A stretch of 64,000 nucleotides of DNA from Haloferax marisrubri. GTDB taxonomy: Archaea > Halobacteriota > Halobacteria > Halobacteriales > Haloferacaceae. The stretch covers positions 593,924-657,923 of the forward strand of contig NZ_LOPW02000010.1 in assembly GCF_001469875.2 (NCBI RefSeq), written 5' to 3'. The notes below the pieces were generated by a model. The model worked only from the letters and a program-made list of their open reading frames with translations, had not been told where the DNA came from and made no database searches. The translations under genes were made by a program, and so were the position numbers. Positions 6,859 through 15,640 of the stretch are shown here, piece by piece. Numbering within the stretch: the stretch's first letter is position 1; each line of letters begins with the position of its first letter.

Positions 6859-6890
6859 AACAGCGCACAACGAGTGAATGCGCTTACCTG

Positions 6891-6964
6891 GGCCAATAGC
6901 TCAGTCAGGTTGAGCGCTCGGCTGATAACCGGGAGGCCCGCGGTTCAAATCCGCGTTGGCCCAT
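6891..6964 (+). tRNA. tRNA-Ile (anticodon GAU)
   Basis: A 74-base cloverleaf with no intron. The acceptor stem pairs GGGCCAA with TTGGCCC, the D-arm is GCTC/GAGC, the anticodon stem is CTCGG/CCGGG with loop CTGATAA (anticodon GAT at 6925-6927), and the T-arm is CGCGG-TTCAAAT-CCGCG followed by a single discriminator A. CCA is not encoded. The last 13 bases (6952-6964) are repeated exactly at 15628-15640, which identifies the gene as the integration target of the element that follows. A near-perfect hairpin follows the gene at about 6971-6995. Confidence 0.97.
6952..6964 (+). repeat. attL core (3' end of tRNA-Ile)
   Basis: Thirteen bases CCGCGTTGGCCCA shared exactly with 15628-15640. This copy completes the functional tRNA. 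Beyond the core, bases 6986-7041 also resemble 15662-15719 at the same distance from the repeat (about two thirds identical by eye). Confidence 0.9.
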
Positions 6965-7134
6965 CCAAAATTTACTCGGCACCTTGCCGAAGTAAATTGG
7001 GCTTCATGGCTCCCCAGCCACCCAGATTCTGACGATAACCAAAATCGAGAGAGGGTTCTCTCGCGTCAACTCAACAAGTATCCTACCGCACCCCCACTAC
7101 GTACAGCGATTAGTTTAGCCGGGGGTGAGTTCGC

Positions 7135-7371
7135 GTGGCGGTGAGACTCGCCAAGGCCGCTCAGAAAAAGCGGTGTCTCTACTGCGACTCTCACGTCACT
7201 CACGACTTCCGCCGCGTCTACGGAGATAGTGACGACCGCGCGCACCGCTGTCGCGAGTGCGACACGCTGGTTCGCCTGCAGCGCGGCTCCGCGGGCGGGC
7301 TCGACGTTCCCATCCCCGACCCGCAAGAAGCGCCCGGTCGCCACGGCGGTAATCCCGAGCGGTGGTCCTGA
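7135..7371 (+). CDS. Small zinc-finger protein, first gene of the element operon
   Basis: A 78-residue basic protein with two cysteine pairs: RCLYCDSHVTHDF near residue 14 and HRCRECDTLVRLQRG near residue 38. Together they form a compact CxxC/CxxC zinc ribbon with intervening histidines. Such proteins are common on haloarchaeal plasmids and proviruses, where they may bind DNA or act as partners of larger proteins. The start is GTG at 7135; a second GTG at 7141 is equally possible. The stop codon overlaps the next ATG by one base (TGATG), so the two genes are translationally coupled. The open frame at 6956-7144 just upstream overlaps the tRNA and is not counted as a gene. Confidence 0.65.
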   Translation: MAVRLAKAAQKKRCLYCDSHVTHDFRRVYGDSDDRAHRCRECDTLVRLQRGSAGGLDVPIPDPQEAPGRHGGNPERWS

Positions 7372-7835
7372 TGGGGATCGCTCCATCGAAGCGCGCGGGC
7401 AATACAGTCGAAGCCACGCTTCTCCAGCGCCACCCCGACTTTCGGTACGTCTCCGACGAGACTGCCGAGCACCACGACGCCGTTACCGTCTCACTCGTCG
7501 CTCCGAGTCGACAGCTGCCGTTCGTCGGGATCTGTCTTCTCGAGACCGGGACCGTCGTGGAGATCAAGAGCGCGATGGTCGTCTACGGCGAGGATCAGCG
7601 CCGCGGTCGGTTCCTGATTCGACAGAGCCAGCACGACCATCTCCTCGAGGAAGCTGGCGTCTATCTCTTCGCCGTCTGCGCGCCGACTCCCGCGCGCGAC
7701 ATCATCGCCGCGAAGATCGTCCCCGCGACCCTCGTTGACGAGTTCGATTTCTCGTGGATCGACCGGGACGCGCGCTCAAGCTACGCGCAGTTCGCCTGGT
7801 CGCGCGTGTTCTCGCCCGACGAGGTGGAACGATGA
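7371..7835 (+). CDS. Possible PD-(D/E)XK-fold nuclease-like protein of the element
   Basis: A 154-residue protein. The central segment reads like the core of a restriction-type nuclease fold: an acidic residue in ETGTVVEIKSAMV (with the E-x-K signature near residue 66), followed by RRGRFLIRQSQHDHLLEEAG and the strand VYLFAVCA, the order seen in archaeal Holliday-junction resolvases and related small nucleases. An upstream conserved acid would be needed to complete the site; D53 or E62 could serve, so the assignment is tentative. The ATG at 7371 overlaps the preceding stop; an in-frame GTG at 7362 is less likely. Its own stop overlaps the next gene (ATGA). The role would be DNA processing by the element, which is inference. 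Confidence 0.5.
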   Translation: MGIAPSKRAGNTVEATLLQRHPDFRYVSDETAEHHDAVTVSLVAPSRQLPFVGICLLETGTVVEIKSAMVVYGEDQRRGRFLIRQSQHDHLLEEAGVYLFAVCAPTPARDIIAAKIVPATLVDEFDFSWIDRDARSSYAQFAWSRVFSPDEVER

Positions 7836-8404
7836 CCCGCCTGCGTGGGACGTACTTCGCACGATTGACCAACGGGGTTGCGACACCGCCGCGGTCCGCG
7901 TCCGTCTTCGCTGTCGTGCGCGATGCACCCGAATGGGTCGAAGAGATCACCGATCGGAACCTGCCGGTCCTCGCGCCGCCGAAGCGACTCGAGACAGCTC
8001 GTAACCGAGTCGAATCGACCGCCGAGGATGATCGGGTAGACGATCCCGCGCTTGTCGCGTGGAACTCGGTCAACTTCGAAGCGCAGTATCGTCGCCACCT
8101 TTCGCGTGGCGGCGCTCGTGAGGTTCTCACCACGTTAGTCGAGACAGTCGAACATCGGCCCGTCTGGGTCGTCTCGTGGCGCTCTCGTGCCGACGTGGAC
8201 CATCGCTCCGTTCTCCTCGAAGAACTCCGTGAGCGGGCGGAGATTGGTCCCTGCGAGCCCGGTGATCATCGATGGTCGCGCGGCCCGGTCCCGACGACTA
8301 TCGTTTGCGGTCGCTGCGGGTACGACTCGACGAGCCTCGCGACCGGGCAACTGGCGCAGGATGTGGAGATTCCCGCGCGACTTTCCGGTGGTGCTCGACG
8401 GTGA
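7832..8404 (+). CDS. DUF488-like protein with C-terminal zinc motif
   Basis: A 190-residue protein. The order of elements, TYFARLTNG at the start, WNSVNFEAQYRRHLS in the middle and RPVWVVSWRSRADVDHRSVLLEEL later, follows the DUF488 family, whose members have the pattern Y..F and a late C/D-H-R motif. The family has no settled biochemical role but recurs on mobile DNA. Unusually, a C-terminal zinc-binding segment (CEPGDHRWSRG, then CGRCGYDS) is added after the DUF488-like core. The ATG at 7832 overlaps the upstream stop by four bases and the gene ends in a GTGA overlap with the next, so all four genes of this operon are coupled. Confidence 0.5.
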   Translation: MTRLRGTYFARLTNGVATPPRSASVFAVVRDAPEWVEEITDRNLPVLAPPKRLETARNRVESTAEDDRVDDPALVAWNSVNFEAQYRRHLSRGGAREVLTTLVETVEHRPVWVVSWRSRADVDHRSVLLEELRERAEIGPCEPGDHRWSRGPVPTTIVCGRCGYDSTSLATGQLAQDVEIPARLSGGARR

Positions 8405-10527
8405 GCGACGAGAGTTCCGGGGAGATCGTCGCGGAGTTCTCTGTCCTAGAGGACGCGGCCGCGGTCACGGCTGATGATGAGGATTCGGTTTCGTCTTCAG
8501 TTGACAACGGCTACGAGCCCGGATCGACGGTCGAAGATGAAGCGGACGACACCAGTTTCGAACTTCCGGAGTACGTCGCCGCCTGCCGGTACTGCCAGGG
8601 GACTTTCGAGACCAAGGAAGCCGCGCTCGAACACGAATGGAACTGCGACCTGGAGCCGACCGGCGAGTGTCGCTTCTGTGGTGGCACCCATATCCGGAAA
8701 GACGTTCGTGAGGACCACTTCTACGCCTGTTCAGAAGCACAGGAACACGGGCGGAAACTGAAGCGTGGGGCTCGCGCGCGGACGATGCGCGGGCAGGACA
8801 CCACGCAGGGAGTCTCGGCTCTCCGGAAGTACCTCCTGCCCCAAGAACACGAGTTCTCCGCGTACCTGAAGTGGGATGACGCTCTCTCCGCGTACTTCGG
8901 TCTCGTCTCGCTCTACAAGATGCACGATTTCGAAGAGTACGGTCGGCTTCGGACTGGTTTCGACTACGACGGAGACGAGTGGAACATCGAGTTCGGCTAC
9001 GCGGATAACCCCGGTCTCGCTGTTCCTGACGACGACGCCGATCTCGGTCGGTACGACTGGCGGCTCGAGGACGTGCCGGAGTTCACGATCCACATCTACC
9101 CCGGCGCGTACCAGAGCTTCGGTGAAGCGAAGGCCGACAACCGGAAGCGCGCGTACTTCCGGGTCCGACCGCGGTGGCCGGGTGTCGAATCGAAGAGCGG
9201 CCAGACTATCCCGAACCCGCACGGCATTCTCGGTGTTGACGTGGAGACTCGAGGGAGCTATTTCGAGTTCACCGACTACCCGACGCTTCTCTACCAGGCG
9301 CTCGGTGAACTTCGCGAGCGGCAGACCGAATTCGGCTGGAGTTCGTTTACTGAAATCCGTCCAGAGACCTGCAGCCCGGAGAATATCCACAAGTCCTCGA
9401 ACATCACCGACGCCGAGCTATATGTGCGCGGCAAGAAGGGGGAGACGGGCGGCGTCTTCGCAATCGACGGGACACTTCATCGGCTGTCGATGATTCTCGG
9501 CCGCGAGCGGCGCGGCTACGCGAAGAGCGTCCGTGACGACCGGAAGTGCCGCGGGTACTACCACACCGCGACGATCTGCGCGATGCGCGCCGCTGAAGTC
9601 GTCGGTGGTCACGAGCTACCGAAAGAGTTCAAACACTACCACGTCCGGAACCCCGACGCTGTCGAAGGGACCGTCCTCGAGAACCCGAAGATCGGGGTCT
9701 CCTATCAGAACTCGCTGTACGACGACACGCTTCGATTCAACGACGTGGATCGACTCTACCGCGAACTTGATGAAGCGCTCCTGAACGTCCTGAACTGGTC
9801 GGATCTCCCGACGACGCCGGACCACCAGAAGTACGTCGCGGACGACTACTTCGAAGCTGACGGTGAAGCGCGGATGGTCAAGGTCATCGAGAACCAGCTT
9901 CCCCGAATCGCTCAACAACAGGACGACGAGATTCGGAAGTTCGCGGTCGCGGGGAATATGAACGAGACCGACGTGGCGCTCGTTGACGAGCTGGTGACCG
10001 ACGGCGGGAACGTCTCGCCTGCCGATCTTGCGGATCGGATCGGGAAGGACATCAGCACGGTCTACAGCGCGCTGAAGCGACTCGGTGAGCTGGTGATCCA
10101 CGAGTACGGTCACGTCGAACTGGCTTCGAAGCACATCGCCAACGGGATCGTCGAACACATCGAGTCGGCCAAGCGCACCGTCGAATGTACTCTCGAGGAG
10201 GCCGCGGCCGACATCATCCGCGCGGACACCTACGGTGAGAGCGACGATCCGTGGTCTCATTGGCTCCGCCATTGGGTCCGCAACCGGAAGGACGGCGAGT
10301 ACCGCGAGCGCCTCGAGCTGGCTCCGCAGAAGTCGCGCTCGGAGATCCGGCGGCTCATCCGGTCGGGCGTCAACGCCTGGTCGCGGGTGACCGGTGATCC
10401 GCAGGTGGAGTTCGCCCGCGAGTTCGAGATCGAGGCGACCGCGCTCGATACGTCGAAGCGGGTCGTCTTCCAGCTCCACGAACTGAAGAGTCTCTTCGGT
10501 TCGAACGTGGTCAAACTCGCCAGATAG
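8401..10527 (+). CDS. Large zinc-finger and winged-helix protein, candidate replication protein of the element
   Basis: A 708-residue protein starting at GTG 8401 in a four-base overlap with the previous stop. After an acidic disordered start come two C2HC-type zinc fingers: C62, C65, H78, C82 and C90, C93, H106, C110. A large central domain of unknown fold follows (about 130-500), then a winged-helix module near residues 521-580 (NVSPADLADRIGKDISTVYS as the recognition region) and a helical C-terminal part rich in Arg and Trp. I do not recognise an enzymatic motif. Long proteins of this kind recur on haloarchaeal plasmids and proviruses (DUF7845-like, from memory). Its size, DNA-binding modules and position just upstream of hairpins and AT-rich repeats suggest replication initiation, which is inference. 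Confidence 0.6.
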   Translation: MSDESSGEIVAEFSVLEDAAAVTADDEDSVSSSVDNGYEPGSTVEDEADDTSFELPEYVAACRYCQGTFETKEAALEHEWNCDLEPTGECRFCGGTHIRKDVREDHFYACSEAQEHGRKLKRGARARTMRGQDTTQGVSALRKYLLPQEHEFSAYLKWDDALSAYFGLVSLYKMHDFEEYGRLRTGFDYDGDEWNIEFGYADNPGLAVPDDDADLGRYDWRLEDVPEFTIHIYPGAYQSFGEAKADNRKRAYFRVRPRWPGVESKSGQTIPNPHGILGVDVETRGSYFEFTDYPTLLYQALGELRERQTEFGWSSFTEIRPETCSPENIHKSSNITDAELYVRGKKGETGGVFAIDGTLHRLSMILGRERRGYAKSVRDDRKCRGYYHTATICAMRAAEVVGGHELPKEFKHYHVRNPDAVEGTVLENPKIGVSYQNSLYDDTLRFNDVDRLYRELDEALLNVLNWSDLPTTPDHQKYVADDYFEADGEARMVKVIENQLPRIAQQQDDEIRKFAVAGNMNETDVALVDELVTDGGNVSPADLADRIGKDISTVYSALKRLGELVIHEYGHVELASKHIANGIVEHIESAKRTVECTLEEAAADIIRADTYGESDDPWSHWLRHWVRNRKDGEYRERLELAPQKSRSEIRRLIRSGVNAWSRVTGDPQVEFAREFEIEATALDTSKRVVFQLHELKSLFGSNVVKLAR

Positions 10528-10661
10528 CGCACGACTGCTGAGTGGCGACACTATCCTTCTGGTGAGAAAGCGGCTTCTTTTGCAGCGTTTTCAGGGGTGT
10601 AGCGGGCGAATTTTCTCGTATATCGATTCGACCGGATAGCGACCGCGACCGCGGGCACTCC

Positions 10662-10685
10662 GAATTCGGGGGTGTCCCCGAATTC
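10662..10685. repeat. Perfect inverted repeat, hairpin 1
   Basis: Ten-base arms GAATTCGGGG and CCCCGAATTC around a GTGT loop. It is the first of four consecutive hairpins downstream of the 708-residue protein. Confidence 0.85.
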
Positions 10686-10695
10686 TCCGTTAGAT

Positions 10696-10715
10696 GTGTG
10701 GCTAAAGAGCCACAC
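10696..10715. repeat. Perfect inverted repeat, hairpin 2
   Basis: Eight-base arms GTGTGGCT and AGCCACAC around AAAG, starting 10 bases after hairpin 1. Confidence 0.85.
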
Positions 10716-10729
10716 CTACAGATTACTTC

Positions 10730-10746
10730 AGCCACCTTCGGTGGCT
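10730..10746. repeat. Perfect inverted repeat, hairpin 3
   Basis: Seven-base arms AGCCACC and GGTGGCT around TTC. Confidence 0.8.
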
Positions 10747-10773
10747 TCAGATGAAACAGATGAAATGGGGGTC

Positions 10774-10794
10774 GCCGCGCCTACTCGGCGCGGC
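10774..10794. repeat. Perfect inverted repeat, hairpin 4
   Basis: Eight-base arms GCCGCGCC and GGCGCGGC around TACTC, the most GC-rich of the four. The AT-rich tract begins just after it. Confidence 0.85.
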
Positions 10795-10898
10795 TTGCCT
10801 GCGCAAAATTTTCTCACCTAAACTGGTTTTAGCAGTCTCATTTGGCACTCCTGAATCGTTCTTTAAGTGACACGTGGATATTACTGAACATATGAAAG

Positions 10899-10981
10899 AT
10901 TAGAAAAATGATAAAAATTAGAATAGATGTCCAAATTAGATCGAATATACACGTTACATATGAACAAAATATACAAAATAT
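10899..10981. repeat. Phased AT-rich repeats (18-bp and 9-bp spacing)
   Basis: ATTAGA occurs at 10899, 10917 and 10935, each exactly 18 bases apart, though the bases between are only partly alike. A perfect tandem copy of ACAAAATAT fills 10964-10981. The 9- and 18-bp spacing and very low GC fit iterons or an unwinding element. Confidence 0.5.
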
Positions 10982-11015
10982 AGAGCGTTGGTTTACCTAT
11001 CTTATAGTTGATCAG

Positions 11016-11204
11016 CTAGATGTAGTCACCAATGTGGTTGAGGTGATGCAGCACATATCTTAGAATGCATATCCCGGACATCTGTCCATTCAATCTAATT
11101 CGCTTGACCCACAGCTGCTCTTTCAGCTCCTCGAGCACCCCAACACCCGAAATCGACTCACCACCAGGGACGACCACCACCGGAACCCCGCCAAACCGAA
11201 CCAT
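11016..11204 (-). CDS. Hypothetical small protein, doubtful
   Basis: A 62-residue frame starting with MVRFGGVPVVVVPGGESI; an in-frame start at 11300 would lengthen it to 94 residues. It has a short hydrophobic strand and a Leu-rich helix (VLEELKEQLW), no cysteines and no recognised domain. It lies in the AT-rich core of the element, divergent from the AbrB-like gene. Codon use is mixed and a promoter is unclear. It could be a decayed gene rather than a working one. Confidence 0.3.
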   Translation of the reverse strand: MVRFGGVPVVVVPGGESISGVGVLEELKEQLWVKRIRLNGQMSGICILRYVLHHLNHIGDYI

Positions 11205-11371
11205 ATAGTAAGTAATTATACGCCGCCAGGGGGGGTGTGTGGTGGTGGCAGTTTCTCGAAGTGTACGCTGTCTAGCAATTTTACGTTCGACACCGACCAC
11301 GGCCTGTATTCGTAATGGGTGACTTAGGAGATAGAACTAAGTAGGGTTGGGTGGCCGGTGAGGTGTCAGCA

Positions 11372-11599
11372 ATGGTATTCCGAAAGCTCCGAAACCACGA
11401 CGGCACCCCGCTTGTTGCACTCGACCGCGACGATCTCGTCCTCGACGGCGTCATCGTTGCCGATGAAGACGAACGTGAAGAACAGAGCATGCACGTCCAA
11501 CGACTCGGCAAAGGCGTCTACGTCGTTCGGCCGGTGCCGGAGGACGGCCCGATCCAACCGCTTCACGAGACCGAGCTGCTGCAGGGGCTGGTAAAGTAG
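11372..11599 (+). CDS. AbrB/SpoVT-like small protein
   Basis: A 75-residue acidic protein. The opening FRKLRNHDGTPLVALDRDDLVLDGVI follows the swapped-hairpin AbrB pattern: a strand, a turn with Gly, a strand, then D-D-L-x-L-D-G-V. A beta-rich tail, GKGVYVVRPV, follows. Haloarchaeal mobile elements often carry such proteins as DNA-binding regulators or antitoxins; no toxin partner is adjacent. The ATG at 11372 is preferred over the GTG at 11351 because the conserved pattern starts just after it. It precedes the protease gene by about 105 bases and could control it, though that is only a positional guess. Confidence 0.5.
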   Translation: MVFRKLRNHDGTPLVALDRDDLVLDGVIVADEDEREEQSMHVQRLGKGVYVVRPVPEDGPIQPLHETELLQGLVK

Positions 11600-11704
11600 A
11601 GATCGCACCATGGGAAATGTGTAGCACTCGAAATCGCAGGTAGTGGCAGGATGAACGGGGAATGATTTTAGTCGTATTCTGCGAATTTGTAGATTCGAAA
11701 ACAG

Positions 11705-12517
11705 ATGGGCGATTCATCAAACAGTTGGTACCAGTCTACTGTCACCCCAATCTACCAGACAGTCACTCGCATTAGGTTTCCTCACGAGGAAGGGCATGCT
11801 ACTGGTTTTTTCTATAATTCAGAGGAGAATACGTACTTAGTAACGAATAGACATGTTGTCGAGAGGGAGTCTGGTGAAGAGGAACTAGAATCGATACGGA
11901 TATTCACCCGTTTGGCGGGCGACTTGGGGAATAGAGAGTTTCACGATATTTCTCTCATAGCTGGAAAAAATGAAGACTGGTACACACACCCGCAGAATAA
12001 TGTTGACATTGCTGTAATACCTCTTGATTTTGATTTGGGCTCGATAAACCCAAGTATCGGAATAAGTGACGAACAATCTATTGAGACAGGGAGTCGGGCA
12101 TTCAATTCCGATTCGATTCTGTCAGACAAGGACCGAGTCCGTGCAGGAGATAGAACGCAGATTGTGGGATATCCGGGACAATACATTGACCAGATGTATG
12201 ATTTCCCGGTAACCCGAAATGCAATTGCATCAACTCAATACGGACTACCGTACAATGGATTGCCAGCTTTCTTAACGGACGCTCGGATGCACCCGGGTAC
12301 AAGTGGAAGTCCCGTTTTAGCGGGACCGGTCACACTAATAATTCACGAGGGAGTGAATCTGTCTGGAGCTGCGTATAGACTACTTGGCGTCCATTCGGCG
12401 ACTCTCCAGCAAGCAACTTCAGAAGGAGAAGGTAGGTGGTTAGATCTGAATACTGCGTGGTATGCAGAACTTATCGAGGAGATCATCCAACGGATTGAGT
12501 CAGGAGATTCTAGCTAA
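11705..12517 (+). CDS. Trypsin-like serine protease in the integrated element
   Basis: A 270-residue protein with the three catalytic residues of the chymotrypsin fold in the right order and context: His50 in YLVTNRHVVE, Asp101 in NNVDIAVIPLD and Ser200 in MHPGTSGSPVLAG. A GFFYN strand precedes the His motif, as in HtrA-like and viral-type proteases. There is no signal peptide, transmembrane segment or PDZ domain, so it is probably cytoplasmic. The gene is much AT-richer than the chromosome and uses codons such as ATA and AGA freely, pointing to recent transfer. It faces a divergently encoded winged-helix plus membrane-protein pair. Cytoplasmic trypsin-like proteases on mobile DNA are often part of defence or cell-suicide systems, so that is a plausible role, unproven here. 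Confidence 0.85.
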   Translation: MGDSSNSWYQSTVTPIYQTVTRIRFPHEEGHATGFFYNSEENTYLVTNRHVVERESGEEELESIRIFTRLAGDLGNREFHDISLIAGKNEDWYTHPQNNVDIAVIPLDFDLGSINPSIGISDEQSIETGSRAFNSDSILSDKDRVRAGDRTQIVGYPGQYIDQMYDFPVTRNAIASTQYGLPYNGLPAFLTDARMHPGTSGSPVLAGPVTLIIHEGVNLSGAAYRLLGVHSATLQQATSEGEGRWLDLNTAWYAELIEEIIQRIESGDSS

Positions 12518-12546
12518 AAGGGGTTATAGGACACAACCCCCAGGGG

Positions 12547-12615
12547 TCAGGTGCGAATGTATACGTCGTCCTCGATGTATGCATTTTCAACGTCGGCAAC
12601 TTCGAGGACGTGCAT
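12547..12615 (-). CDS. Possible 22-residue micro-ORF or gene remnant
   Basis: A frame reading MHVLEVADVENAYIEDDVYI plus two residues, ending in TGA. The composition is very protein-like (acidic, patterned strands), unlike random AT-rich sequence. It may be the tail of a decayed gene or a small protein. A TATA-like stretch (ctttttatactcc on the minus strand, near 12670-12682) lies about 60 bases upstream. No function can be given. Confidence 0.25.
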   Translation of the reverse strand: MHVLEVADVENAYIEDDVYIRT

Positions 12616-12702
12616 AGATTCGGGGTGATTCGACTAGGAGACTGGGACGGTCGCGATCACGGGTCACCGGAGTATAAAAAGAACCAATGTTCGTTCACTC
12701 GA

Positions 12703-12716
12703 GATTCACGTGAATC
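12703..12716. repeat. 14-bp perfect palindrome in the element cargo region
   Basis: GATTCACGTGAATC reads the same on both strands. It lies between the protease gene and the 3' end of the membrane-protein gene, close to a TATA-like motif at about 12672-12679. It could bind a dimeric regulator such as the winged-helix protein nearby; this is inference from symmetry only. Confidence 0.4.
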
Positions 12717-12763
12717 GTCCCCCGGTGCATACGATTGCTTATAACACAGAGAAGTAGCTTGAA

Positions 12764-13627
12764 TTAGCTGCCTCTAATGAATCCGTAGCCAGTCATAACG
12801 AAGGCACCCAAGCCCAGACTATTCCCAAGCCCGATAAATGGGTAAGACACAGCTGTAATCATCACACCGACGAACACAATTCCAATACTTCCAGAAAGAA
12901 GTCCGTTCTTGACACCGGAAATTTCCCTTTTTAGACCTTCAACCTTCGTCGGTCGGTGGGTCGGATCTAACTCAATATCCTTCGACAACTCATTAATCAC
13001 AGACCCATCCTTTGGAACGATTCCGGCGGAAACATATTCCACAAACTGACTGAACGAGTTGTTTAGCACCTGCTCTTGATCTCGAGCGGTCTCAAACCGG
13101 TCAATGTATTGTATGATCTCTTTTCGTAAATCGTAGGGAATCTTCTCTGCATGAGGTCTAGAAAGAAGTCCTGGAACTTCGATAGAATTCCTTGCCGAGA
13201 CCAGGTGGTGTTCTATTTCCTCAACATCCAATGGGTCAGAGCGTCTGAATGAATCGAAGGCTTCCGCCAAATCATGACACGCAACAATCTCGTCATCAAG
13301 TTCTGAACCTAACAGGGCAAGTTGGAATCCGAGGCTCACTAATGCAAAAACCGATGCAAGAGAAAAGCTACCCATAGCGGCGAATAGAAACTGTCCTGTA
13401 ATCTCTCCTTCAGAAGTGTAGCCAAATCGGGAAGCGAAGTAGATTATGATCCCCGTGGCAATTATAAGGCCGTATGCAAACCAATCTGCCCACTTTTTAA
13501 ATTGCTTTCTCTGACGGTACCGTGTTACCGCTGATTCGTCCAGGTTGTATGACCTAATTAGACCATTAACGTAGTTTATTGATCGAAATGTTTCTTTCAA
13601 TTGACCAGCTTGGTTTTCCCCGGGCAT
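12764..13627 (-). CDS. Four-TM membrane protein of the element cargo
   Basis: A 287-residue protein with two pairs of membrane helices: about 46-66 and 79-107 near the N terminus, and about 238-258 and 262-283 at the C terminus. A charged helical cytoplasmic stretch of some 130 residues lies between them (starting near SELDDEIVACHDLAEAF). No known domain is recognised. The ATG at 13627 starts one base after the stop of the winged-helix gene, so the two are one operon. A longer in-frame start at 13690 would overlap that gene and is rejected. The gene is AT-rich, like the protease gene. A membrane protein with a large soluble insert beside a regulator and a protease suggests a sensor or a membrane-acting effector, which is inference. 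Confidence 0.65.
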   Translation of the reverse strand: MPGENQAGQLKETFRSINYVNGLIRSYNLDESAVTRYRQRKQFKKWADWFAYGLIIATGIIIYFASRFGYTSEGEITGQFLFAAMGSFSLASVFALVSLGFQLALLGSELDDEIVACHDLAEAFDSFRRSDPLDVEEIEHHLVSARNSIEVPGLLSRPHAEKIPYDLRKEIIQYIDRFETARDQEQVLNNSFSQFVEYVSAGIVPKDGSVINELSKDIELDPTHRPTKVEGLKREISGVKNGLLSGSIGIVFVGVMITAVSYPFIGLGNSLGLGAFVMTGYGFIRGS

Positions 13628-13628
13628 T

Positions 13629-13865
13629 CTATGACTTTTCCAAGTATTCCTCACCGTGTGATGTGATCCACCAGCCAGGACTGCGGCCAACGCGCTTGAA
13701 ATCTACGAGACTTCGTTCTGCTAAATCATATAGCCGCTTTCGAGCACCTTCGTTCGAGAATTCGATAGAGTCTGCTACCTCGTTAGTGGTGAGAAACGGA
13801 TCCTGAGACTGAATAAATATCTCTAGTATCTCAGAGTCAGATACTGTTTCTCGTCGTCCAGCCAT
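13629..13865 (-). CDS. Winged-helix DNA-binding protein
   Basis: A 78-residue protein that is almost entirely one winged helix: SDSEILEIFIQSQDPFLTTN, then EVADSIEFSNEGARKRLYDL as helix-turn-helix, and a wing VDFKRVGRSPGWWIT. Small single-domain proteins of this kind are widespread in haloarchaeal plasmids and defence loci as local regulators. It is the first gene of a two-gene minus-strand operon with the four-TM protein. A TATA-like element (aatttatt on the minus strand, about 13889-13897) sits about 26 bases upstream, fitting a leaderless start at 13865. Confidence 0.75.
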   Translation of the reverse strand: MAGRRETVSDSEILEIFIQSQDPFLTTNEVADSIEFSNEGARKRLYDLAERSLVDFKRVGRSPGWWITSHGEEYLEKS

Positions 13866-14288
13866 GTTTCAATGTCTGTACTCAAGAGAATAAATTCCCC
13901 GGAGAGATGGTTGTTATTGACAAACCAGTCATCCATAACAAACCAGTTCTGTCGAAACAACTAATACAATGGTGTCCTTCAAAAGTTCTGACGGAAGCAC
14001 CTTCACGAACCTATCGCTCTCCGATAGGTTCTGCAGAAGCGGACCTCGCTGGTAGGACAGCAGGCCCGCGCGGGCTTCCGTGACCAGACCACGAAAGCCA
14101 TGTTCGACTCACTTCCGCGGGCTCTTGAACCCCGCGCACGAGCGCACGCACAGTCGCCAAAGAACCGTTTAGTTTCACTCGTAGAAACGCCCGATTCCGG
14201 GGGTACGTCCGGCCAATTCGTTCACTTTCACTTTCACTCCCCGTACGAGCGGGCGTATTATTACAAAACGGGTGGCCGCCCAACTGTG
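13866..14288. other. Gene-free stretch between cargo operon and integrase module
   Basis: The left part carries the minus-strand promoter of the winged-helix gene in AT-rich sequence. From about 13990 the sequence turns GC-rich. A perfect hairpin, arms GAACCTATCG and CGATAGGTTC, lies at 14007-14031, and a self-complementary GCCCGCGCGGGC at about 14071-14082. The abrupt change in composition near 13990 may mark a boundary between cargo and the integrase module. An open plus-strand frame running from 14100 into the next gene has no convincing conserved part before 14289. Confidence 0.4.
14007..14031. repeat. Perfect 10-bp inverted repeat at the cargo/integrase boundary
   Basis: Arms GAACCTATCG (14007-14016) and CGATAGGTTC (14022-14031) around CTCTC. 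It is not followed by a T-run in either direction, so a terminator is unlikely. It may be an excisionase or integrase arm site, or structured RNA. Confidence 0.5.
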
Positions 14289-14540
14289 ATGACGACTACG
14301 CAGGTCATTTGCGATGAGAACCGGACGGACCGATGGCAGTTCGTATGTCCGCGAGAACACCGAACGTGGGAAGCGGCGGAAGACCACTTCTGGTGCCAAC
14401 GGTGCGCGTCCACTCAGGACGTTGACGGCCGGTTCCATCAACTCCGCGATAAGGTGAGTGGTGAGCGACTTTCTCGTGAGGAAGTCGTACTCCAGAGTAA
14501 CTGTGACGACGACCTCGAGCAGCTGGAGGTGGCAGAATGA
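14289..14540 (+). CDS. Small zinc-binding protein coupled to the integrase
   Basis: An 83-residue protein with a treble-cleft-like cysteine/histidine cluster: FVCPREHRTWEAAEDHFWCQ followed by RCAS. This suggests one zinc site formed by the first Cys, one or more His and the CxxC pair. The last four bases overlap the integrase start (ATGA), so the two proteins are made together. Small zinc proteins directly before the integrase are frequent in haloarchaeal integrative elements and may help excision, an inference from position. The ATG at 14289 is chosen because residues upstream in the frame are Pro/Ser/Arg-rich and unlike coding sequence. Confidence 0.6.
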   Translation: MTTTQVICDENRTDRWQFVCPREHRTWEAAEDHFWCQRCASTQDVDGRFHQLRDKVSGERLSREEVVLQSNCDDDLEQLEVAE

Positions 14541-15568
14541 GCGACGATCTCGATCCGATCACGCCCGAGGCGGGACTGTCCTACTACCTCGATGCGAGAC
14601 GGTACGATGTTCGTCCGACGACGCTCCAGAGCCACCGGGCGCGGCTGCAATCGTTCATCGACTGGCTCGATTCTCAGGGGATTCACAACATGAACGATGT
14701 GGACCTTCGGACGGTTCACGCGTACCAGGTCTACAAGCGCGAGGACAACGGTGAGAACGAACCCTGCAACGCGGTCACGATGCAGGGTCAGATCTCGACG
14801 CTTCGCCGGTTCCTCGATCACCTGAGCGATATCGATGCGGTTCCTGAATCGCTCTCCGAGCGGATTCGCCTGCCGAAGATCGAGCCGGGCGAGGACGTGG
14901 ATGAGGAGTTCCTCGATTCCGGTCGGGCGAAGGCAATTCTCGAGTATATGAACCGCTTCGAGTACGCGACGCCCCACCACGTTGCTATCCTACTGTTCTG
15001 GCGTACGTCCGCGCGTCGTGGTGACCTCCACGCGCTCGATCTGAAGGATTTCGATAAGGACGAGAATGCGCTGTCGTTCGTCCACCGTCCGGAGACTGAG
15101 ACTCGTCTGAAGAACGGGTACAAGGGCGAACGCGATGTTTCGATTCAGCCGGATGTCGCGCGCGTCATCGAGGATTACATCCGGGCGAATCGGCACTCGG
15201 TGCAGGATGACCACGGCCGTTTCCCGCTGTTTACTACGACGTTGGGACGGGCGTCTCTCGGGACGATCCAGCAATGGGCGTACAGATGGACGCGCCCGTG
15301 CGTGATCGGTGAGGGATGTCCGCACGACCGCGATCCTTCGACGTGCGAGAACACGGATATCTCGCAGGCGTCCGGCTGCCCCTCGAGCATGGGTCCGCAC
15401 GCGATTCGGAAGGGTTCGATCACGGCGTTCCGTGATGCGGGGACGCCGCGCGAGGTTGTGAGCGAACGCGGCGATGTTTCTGAGGAGGTTCTGGAGAAGC
15501 ACTACGACAAGGCGAACGCGCGTGACCGGATGCGTCGTCGTCGTGAGTTTATTCCGGAGGAGATCTGA
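14537..15568 (+). CDS. Tyrosine recombinase (integrase) of the tRNA-Ile element
   Basis: A 343-residue phage/XerC-type site-specific recombinase. The N-terminal core-binding domain includes TTLQSHRARLQSFIDWLDSQ. In the catalytic domain the first Arg lies in WRTSARRGDLHALDL (near 157), the HxxR box is GPHAIRKGSI (near 290), and the nucleophile Tyr is in EKHYDKANARDRM (near 321). The gene is intact and sits beside attR, so integration does not split it as in SSV-type viruses. Expected function is recombination between the element circle and tRNA-Ile through the 13-bp core. It is translationally coupled to the small zinc protein before it. Confidence 0.93.
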   Translation: MSDDLDPITPEAGLSYYLDARRYDVRPTTLQSHRARLQSFIDWLDSQGIHNMNDVDLRTVHAYQVYKREDNGENEPCNAVTMQGQISTLRRFLDHLSDIDAVPESLSERIRLPKIEPGEDVDEEFLDSGRAKAILEYMNRFEYATPHHVAILLFWRTSARRGDLHALDLKDFDKDENALSFVHRPETETRLKNGYKGERDVSIQPDVARVIEDYIRANRHSVQDDHGRFPLFTTTLGRASLGTIQQWAYRWTRPCVIGEGCPHDRDPSTCENTDISQASGCPSSMGPHAIRKGSITAFRDAGTPREVVSERGDVSEEVLEKHYDKANARDRMRRRREFIPEEI

Positions 15569-15627
15569 GATGTTCGCTACCTCGTACACCGTAGCTAGCC
15601 CTCAGGAAAAAGTCCACTTTGGAGTAC

Positions 15628-15640
15628 CCGCGTTGGCCCA
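15628..15640 (+). repeat. attR core
   Basis: CCGCGTTGGCCCA, identical to the tRNA-Ile 3' end at 6952-6964. It is followed at 15649-15665 by a perfect 7-bp hairpin (GGCAACG/CGTTGCC). This is the original chromosomal flank of the tRNA gene and matches the position of the hairpin after attL. Confidence 0.9.

Follow-up and report, generated by a model that had tools for sequence, protein, structure and literature searches.

A probable four-hairpin rolling-circle origin behind a zinc-finger Rep-Arvir initiator gene in an integrative element of Haloferax marisrubri

The window analysed here is a stretch of 64,000 nucleotides of Haloferax marisrubri DNA. Positions 10528-10812 of this window very probably serve an integrative element of 8.7 kb as its double-strand origin, with the gene directly upstream encoding the Rep-Arvir rolling-circle initiator of that element, an explanation that rests on homology, conserved residues, position, conservation, covariation, empty sites and cassette limits. 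A sequence-only reading had proposed an initiator gene followed by its origin, in which phased AT-rich repeats were included. The initiator with an origin downstream is retained, in the form of a Rep-Arvir protein and a conserved hairpin, but the AT-repeat part is not. The sequence comparisons favour a known family of rolling-circle origins, nicked at a hairpin, over an AT-rich iteron origin. The features that define the element are as follows.

6889-6967, plus strand: tRNA-Ile(GAT), the integration target (ARAGORN; 6890-6963 in Rfam)
6951-6963, plus strand: attL core CCGCGTTGGCCCA, the 3' end of tRNA-Ile; empty-site homology stops at 6963
7135-7371, plus strand: 78-aa CxxC protein, gene 1 of the rep operon
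7371-7835, plus strand: ORF of PHROG 2095; homologs: LSV-48N (42%), a sister element (78%)
7832-8404, plus strand: ORF with a weak DUF488-N3a / PHROG 2450 match, overlapping the rep start
8401-10527, plus strand: rep, 708-aa Rep-Arvir initiator (DUF7845, wHTH and zinc fingers)
11103-11599, plus strand: block made up of the ORF 11372-11599 and its upstream region, common to sister elements with a different rep
14537-15568, plus strand: tyrosine integrase (Pfam and PHROG matches), adjoining attR and pointing towards it
15628-15640, plus strand: attR core CCGCGTTGGCCCA; in other genomes the right flank joins tRNA-Ile directly

The element occupies 6964-15640 in the tRNA-Ile gene, bounded by an att direct repeat of 13 bp, and empty sites are present in other Haloferax genomes, where the window's right flank comes immediately after the tRNA. 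The overlapping genes at 7135, 7371 and 7832 and rep begin beside attL and point away from it. Given these orientations, with the integrase at attR and the rep operon at attL, excision would join the integrase to the rep operon. A tRNA gene is also found just upstream of rep in several relatives, which fits the same element design; in most relatives, four integrase queries did not recover an integrase. In Harhisp1, a two-CxxC protein is encoded at the same place after attP as the ORF 7135-7371. With regard to the remaining gene content, the element carries a gene for a trypsin-like serine protease (PF13365) at 11705-12517, and the AT-rich minus-strand ORFs for a membrane protein (12764-13690) and a 78-aa winged-helix-like protein (about 13629-13865) are probably cargo. 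In another genome of the genus (G009), the region of a sister element contains two integrase genes of this family, flanking rep on each side.

The origin could also be one by descent that is now inert, in an element replicated only passively with the chromosome. Such a reading is compatible with the identity proposed above for the sequence and differs from it solely on present activity. It agrees with the integrated state of the element, with the lack of recognised virion genes (spike, matrix, NTPase) among nine ORFs scanned with Pfam and PHROGs, and with the occurrence of decay, as hairpins 2-4 are found without rep in H. mediterranei. However, the element has kept Rep, the integrase, its two att cores and each of the four hairpins intact, and inertness appears unlikely, if well worth keeping in mind.

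The Rep-Arvir proteins were established in 2026 as a family of rolling-circle initiators through RepSNJ2 of SNJ2 (NAR 2026, PMC13107129); according to the available text of that paper, replication of SNJ2 requires RepSNJ2 with its residues Y283, E25 and G410 as well as a hairpin that follows the gene. Judged by its sequence, the 708-aa ORF of the window is a member of this family. Its earlier description as a zinc-finger/winged-helix protein holds, since two CCHC fingers are found at residues about 60-110, N-terminal to the catalytic domain DUF7845 (PF25227; residues 147-487, E = 7.8e-93), and a wHTH at about 520-575, where an HTH_24 match (520-561) falls slightly below its cut-off and MarR folds were matched by Foldseek. 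The KHY motif (K411, H412, Y413), E151 and, in the wHTH, G536 are invariant in the alignments, with Y413, E151 and G536 as the counterparts of Y283, E25 and G410 in SNJ2. A further residue, E303, is reported in the same text as essential in SNJ2 and not conserved family-wide; the alignment places G432 of the window Rep at its position, where HGPV1 and HRPV3 also have a glycine (PMC13107129, available text), so E303 is not a defining feature of the family. The closest protein among named virus records is the Rep of the lemon-shaped virus LSV-48N, with 73.5% identity over the full length, and the homologs otherwise include large uncharacterised betapleolipovirus proteins and F3 of the pL6 plasmids. 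Reps in the range of about 700-750 aa, the window's among them, have two CCHC fingers ahead of DUF7845. At the structural level, a confident model of Rep (pLDDT 93.8) had no significant PDB match, Foldseek against PDB did not recover a Rep_trans fold for the catalytic domain, and PDB searches by sequence and by fold returned winged helices only or nothing significant; the relation of the TBP-like fold of Rep-Arvir to Rep_trans is taken from the available text of PMC13107129.

The region downstream of rep contains the following features.

10540-10552, plus strand: conserved motif 1 (GAGTGGCGACACT), directly after the rep stop; compare motif 1-36 of SNJ2
10662-10685, no strand assigned: hairpin 1, a variable inverted repeat, perfect, with a 10-bp stem and a 4-nt loop
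10696-10715, plus strand: hairpin 2, the putative nick hairpin GTGTGGCTAAAGAGCCACAC, conserved and perfect, with an 8-bp stem and a 4-nt loop
10730-10746, no strand assigned: hairpin 3, variable in sequence and seen in the zinc-finger Rep clade, perfect, with a 7-bp stem and a 3-nt loop
10748-10765, plus strand: direct repeat of two copies of CAGATGAAA between hairpins 3 and 4, conserved in close relatives
10774-10794, plus strand: hairpin 4, GCCGCGCCTACTCGGCGCGGC, specific to the zinc-finger Rep clade, perfect, with an 8-bp stem and a 5-nt loop
10813-11102, no strand assigned: AT-rich tract (35% GC) with three ATTAGA and two ACAAAATAT, not conserved and outside the rep-origin cassette

The four perfect inverted repeats pointed out earlier are well above chance: the 300 nt past the rep stop contain four hairpins with a stem of at least 7 and a loop of 3-5, against 0-2 in 2000 dinucleotide shuffles, most of which gave none. 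Moreover, folding of 10650-10800 as single-stranded DNA gave z = -5.7, with none of 200 shuffles as good. No convincing ORF runs across the hairpins, and no known RNA family was found there in Rfam.

Hairpin 2 starts 169 nt past the rep stop and matches the essential hairpin of SNJ2, GTGTGGCTAAGGCCA, which lies 183-197 nt past its gene (mutant table and sequence; PMC13107129, available text). This core hairpin is present at 74 of 79 rep loci across Halobacteria, at a median of 173 nt past the stop (middle half 172-175), and in none of 84 control stretches within rep. In 15 Haloferax genomes, all ten matches to the core pattern sit behind a rep, and a control pattern gave two matches. Four pairs of the hairpin have changed on both sides, a covariation score reached by none of 500 shuffles; the stem appears as GGC/GCC, GAG/CTC, GAT/ATC, CCG/CGG or GGA/TCC with pairing kept, and the loop is almost fixed. 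Hairpin 1 is the positional counterpart of the inverted repeat upstream in SNJ2 that serves as the bind site, and it is weak in some relatives, as is hairpin 3. In IMG/VR, the core hairpin has eight exact matches; no Rep lies near any of them, all lack the flanking TTAG context, and they are taken as chance. A protein search of viral contigs gave no matches.

The hairpins might instead act as RNA, as transcription terminators or 3'-end structures of the rep operon mRNA, given that they directly follow the last gene of the operon and that motif 1 lies near the position of the mapped terminator in SNJ2. However, transcription in SNJ2 stops about 50 nt past the gene, ahead of the hairpins, and mutation of the hairpin abolished replication (both from the available text of PMC13107129). 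Furthermore, none of 84 cells for the six core pairs of hairpin 2 is G-U, and the distance of this hairpin from the stop is fixed and its loop nearly invariant, neither of which a terminator needs. A role as RNA is therefore improbable, and the hairpins are better read as parts of an origin.

Two variations were observed at other loci. In a small Rep-Arvir clade (L109, L111, L112, L121), a TTAGGGACACRCCTAA-like sequence replaces the usual core hairpin and is apparently an altered nick site. Among 43 loci without a zinc-finger Rep, 18 (L012, L013, L014, L018-L022, L034, L094, L096-L099, L102, L103, L116, L117) have a CGCG(A/C)AAA motif at most about 135 nt past the core hairpin, compared with a mean of 1.6 and a maximum of 5 in shuffles; the available text of PMC13107129 makes no mention of it.

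Behind hairpin 2, intact zinc-finger Rep loci carry a further two hairpins, no more than about 100 nt away, and hairpin 4 is present in all examined intact loci of this clade. All 30 loci with hairpin 4 fall into a single clade (support 100), and the zinc-finger pattern is found at 28 of them, the remaining two having shorter Rep reading frames; among the other rep loci, hairpin 4 occurs in none of about 42. Its sequence is nearly fixed as GCCGCGCCTACTCGGCGCGGC or GGCGCGCCTGACTCGGCGCGCC, with 98.7% of cells paired and three pairs changed on both sides, a result seen in none of 500 shuffles. Hairpin 3 varies freely in sequence and is weak or internally mismatched at some loci. The 14-mer of hairpin 4 has 19 matches in 170 genomes, fewer than its reversed control, and thus it is informative only beside rep. 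In a decayed copy in H. mucosum, hairpin 4 is damaged.

As a hypothesis, hairpins 3 and 4 most likely belong to this origin in an accessory role, either as a docking site for the zinc fingers or as a start site for the single strand. They need not be essential, because a 210-nt SNJ2 fragment that ends ahead of their positions sufficed for transformation. The minimal SNJ2 plasmid was unstable, which its authors blame on absent accessory genes, and this keeps the accessory role of the two hairpins at the level of a proposal (for both SNJ2 results, available text of PMC13107129). More tentatively, and with somewhat less than even confidence, these replicons may form a distinct Rep-Arvir subclass with a compound origin, in which the zinc-finger domain unique to these Reps would recognise hairpin 4 (or hairpins 3 and 4 would be the single-strand origin), and in which rep and the four hairpins would pass as a plug-in replicon between lemon-shaped viruses, plasmids and integrative elements.

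The limits of the unit are indicated by two sets of homologies. Other zinc-finger-Rep elements match the window at the DNA level between about 8386 and 10797-10812, a segment that opens at the rep start and closes shortly after hairpin 4. Two sister elements, whose rep is very different (about 26%), are homologous to the window over 7164-8393 and 11103-11599. The rep gene and the four hairpins (8386 to about 10812) therefore appear, from these alignments, to have been transferred together, as a single cassette, between elements that are otherwise related. On a megaplasmid of H. mediterranei, orphan hairpins 2-4 (83%) lie without rep at NZ_CP039140.1 476894-476993 (locus L009, 4001-4100), followed about 890 nt later by a block homologous to 11103-11599 of the window; they represent either what is left of a decayed element or an origin that is served in trans.

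The AT-rich repeats are present as first noted, with ATTAGA at 10899, 10917 and 10935 (18-bp spacing) and the ACAAAATAT tandem of two copies at 10964-10981. The tract shows no secondary structure (folding z +1.2). It lies in neither homology block and has no relatives among 170 family genomes or the plasmid collection, and so does not belong to the origin as it is conserved. Since the homology of the unit ends at 10797-10812 and the tract is unique to this element, its earlier inclusion was dropped; it is possibly a junction left by cassette exchange. That the repeats at 10899-10981 are themselves the origin, as protein-bound iterons with an AT-rich unwinding region, is very improbable and was rejected: only about 0.1% of tract shuffles contain three equally spaced copies of a 6-mer, and only about 0.1% a perfect 9-bp tandem (post hoc figures), but the tract lacks homologs, falls outside the cassette and has no equivalent in LSV-48N despite the 73.5% identity of Rep.

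With the hairpins as the origin, we infer binding, nicking and replication, the switch and the part played by hairpins 3 and 4. If the element works like SNJ2 and pT181-type plasmids, Rep would bind hairpin 1 via its winged helix, hairpin 2 would extrude, tyrosine 413 would nick the TAAAG loop of hairpin 2, and leading-strand synthesis would be primed by the free 3' end. Integration into tRNA-Ile puts the integrase gene and the rep operon at opposite ends of the element, and excision would set the former directly upstream of the latter; in SNJ2, the junction of integrase and rep operon is the arrangement that switches replication on, described as a lysogeny-replication switch (PMC13107129, available text).

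These results place a just-described archaeal rolling-circle system in a genus with easy genetics, Haloferax. The extent of the replicon, rep and about 285 nt, can be read from the natural exchange of the cassette, and an origin part undescribed in the available text on SNJ2 goes hand in hand, one-to-one, with an extra domain of the protein, a link that can be tested by deleting either.

Among known systems, the Haloferax lemon-shaped virus LSV-48N (PP151251) shares, beyond its Rep, a four-hairpin block that is 83% identical and the gene order integrase, small ORFs, rep; in contrast to the element, it is a 24.9-kb virus, and sharing at the DNA level is restricted to the rep-origin cassette and a neighbouring stretch. 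In the pL6-family plasmids of Haloquadratum, a Rep homolog, F3 (about 31%), is followed by the same core hairpin, but these plasmids have neither zinc finger nor hairpin 4 and are not integrated. The double-strand origins of pT181 and pC221 (Rep_trans) would be alike in having a palindromic bind site beside a nick hairpin and a tyrosine nucleophile, although they show no sequence similarity to the window. The betapleolipovirus SNJ2 has an initiator with DUF7845, wHTH and the conserved residues, an inverted repeat followed by a conserved hairpin about 170-180 nt past the stop, and tRNA integration with the rep operon adjoining att. The window differs from it in the N-terminal double zinc finger of Rep, in the loop of hairpin 2 (TAARGA, compared with TAAG), in two further hairpins and in an element without recognised virion genes. 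The available text of PMC13107129 describes a two-part origin and mentions neither zinc fingers nor hairpins 3 and 4; relative to that description, what is new is an enlarged origin together with an extra zinc-finger part on the initiator, in one branch of the family.
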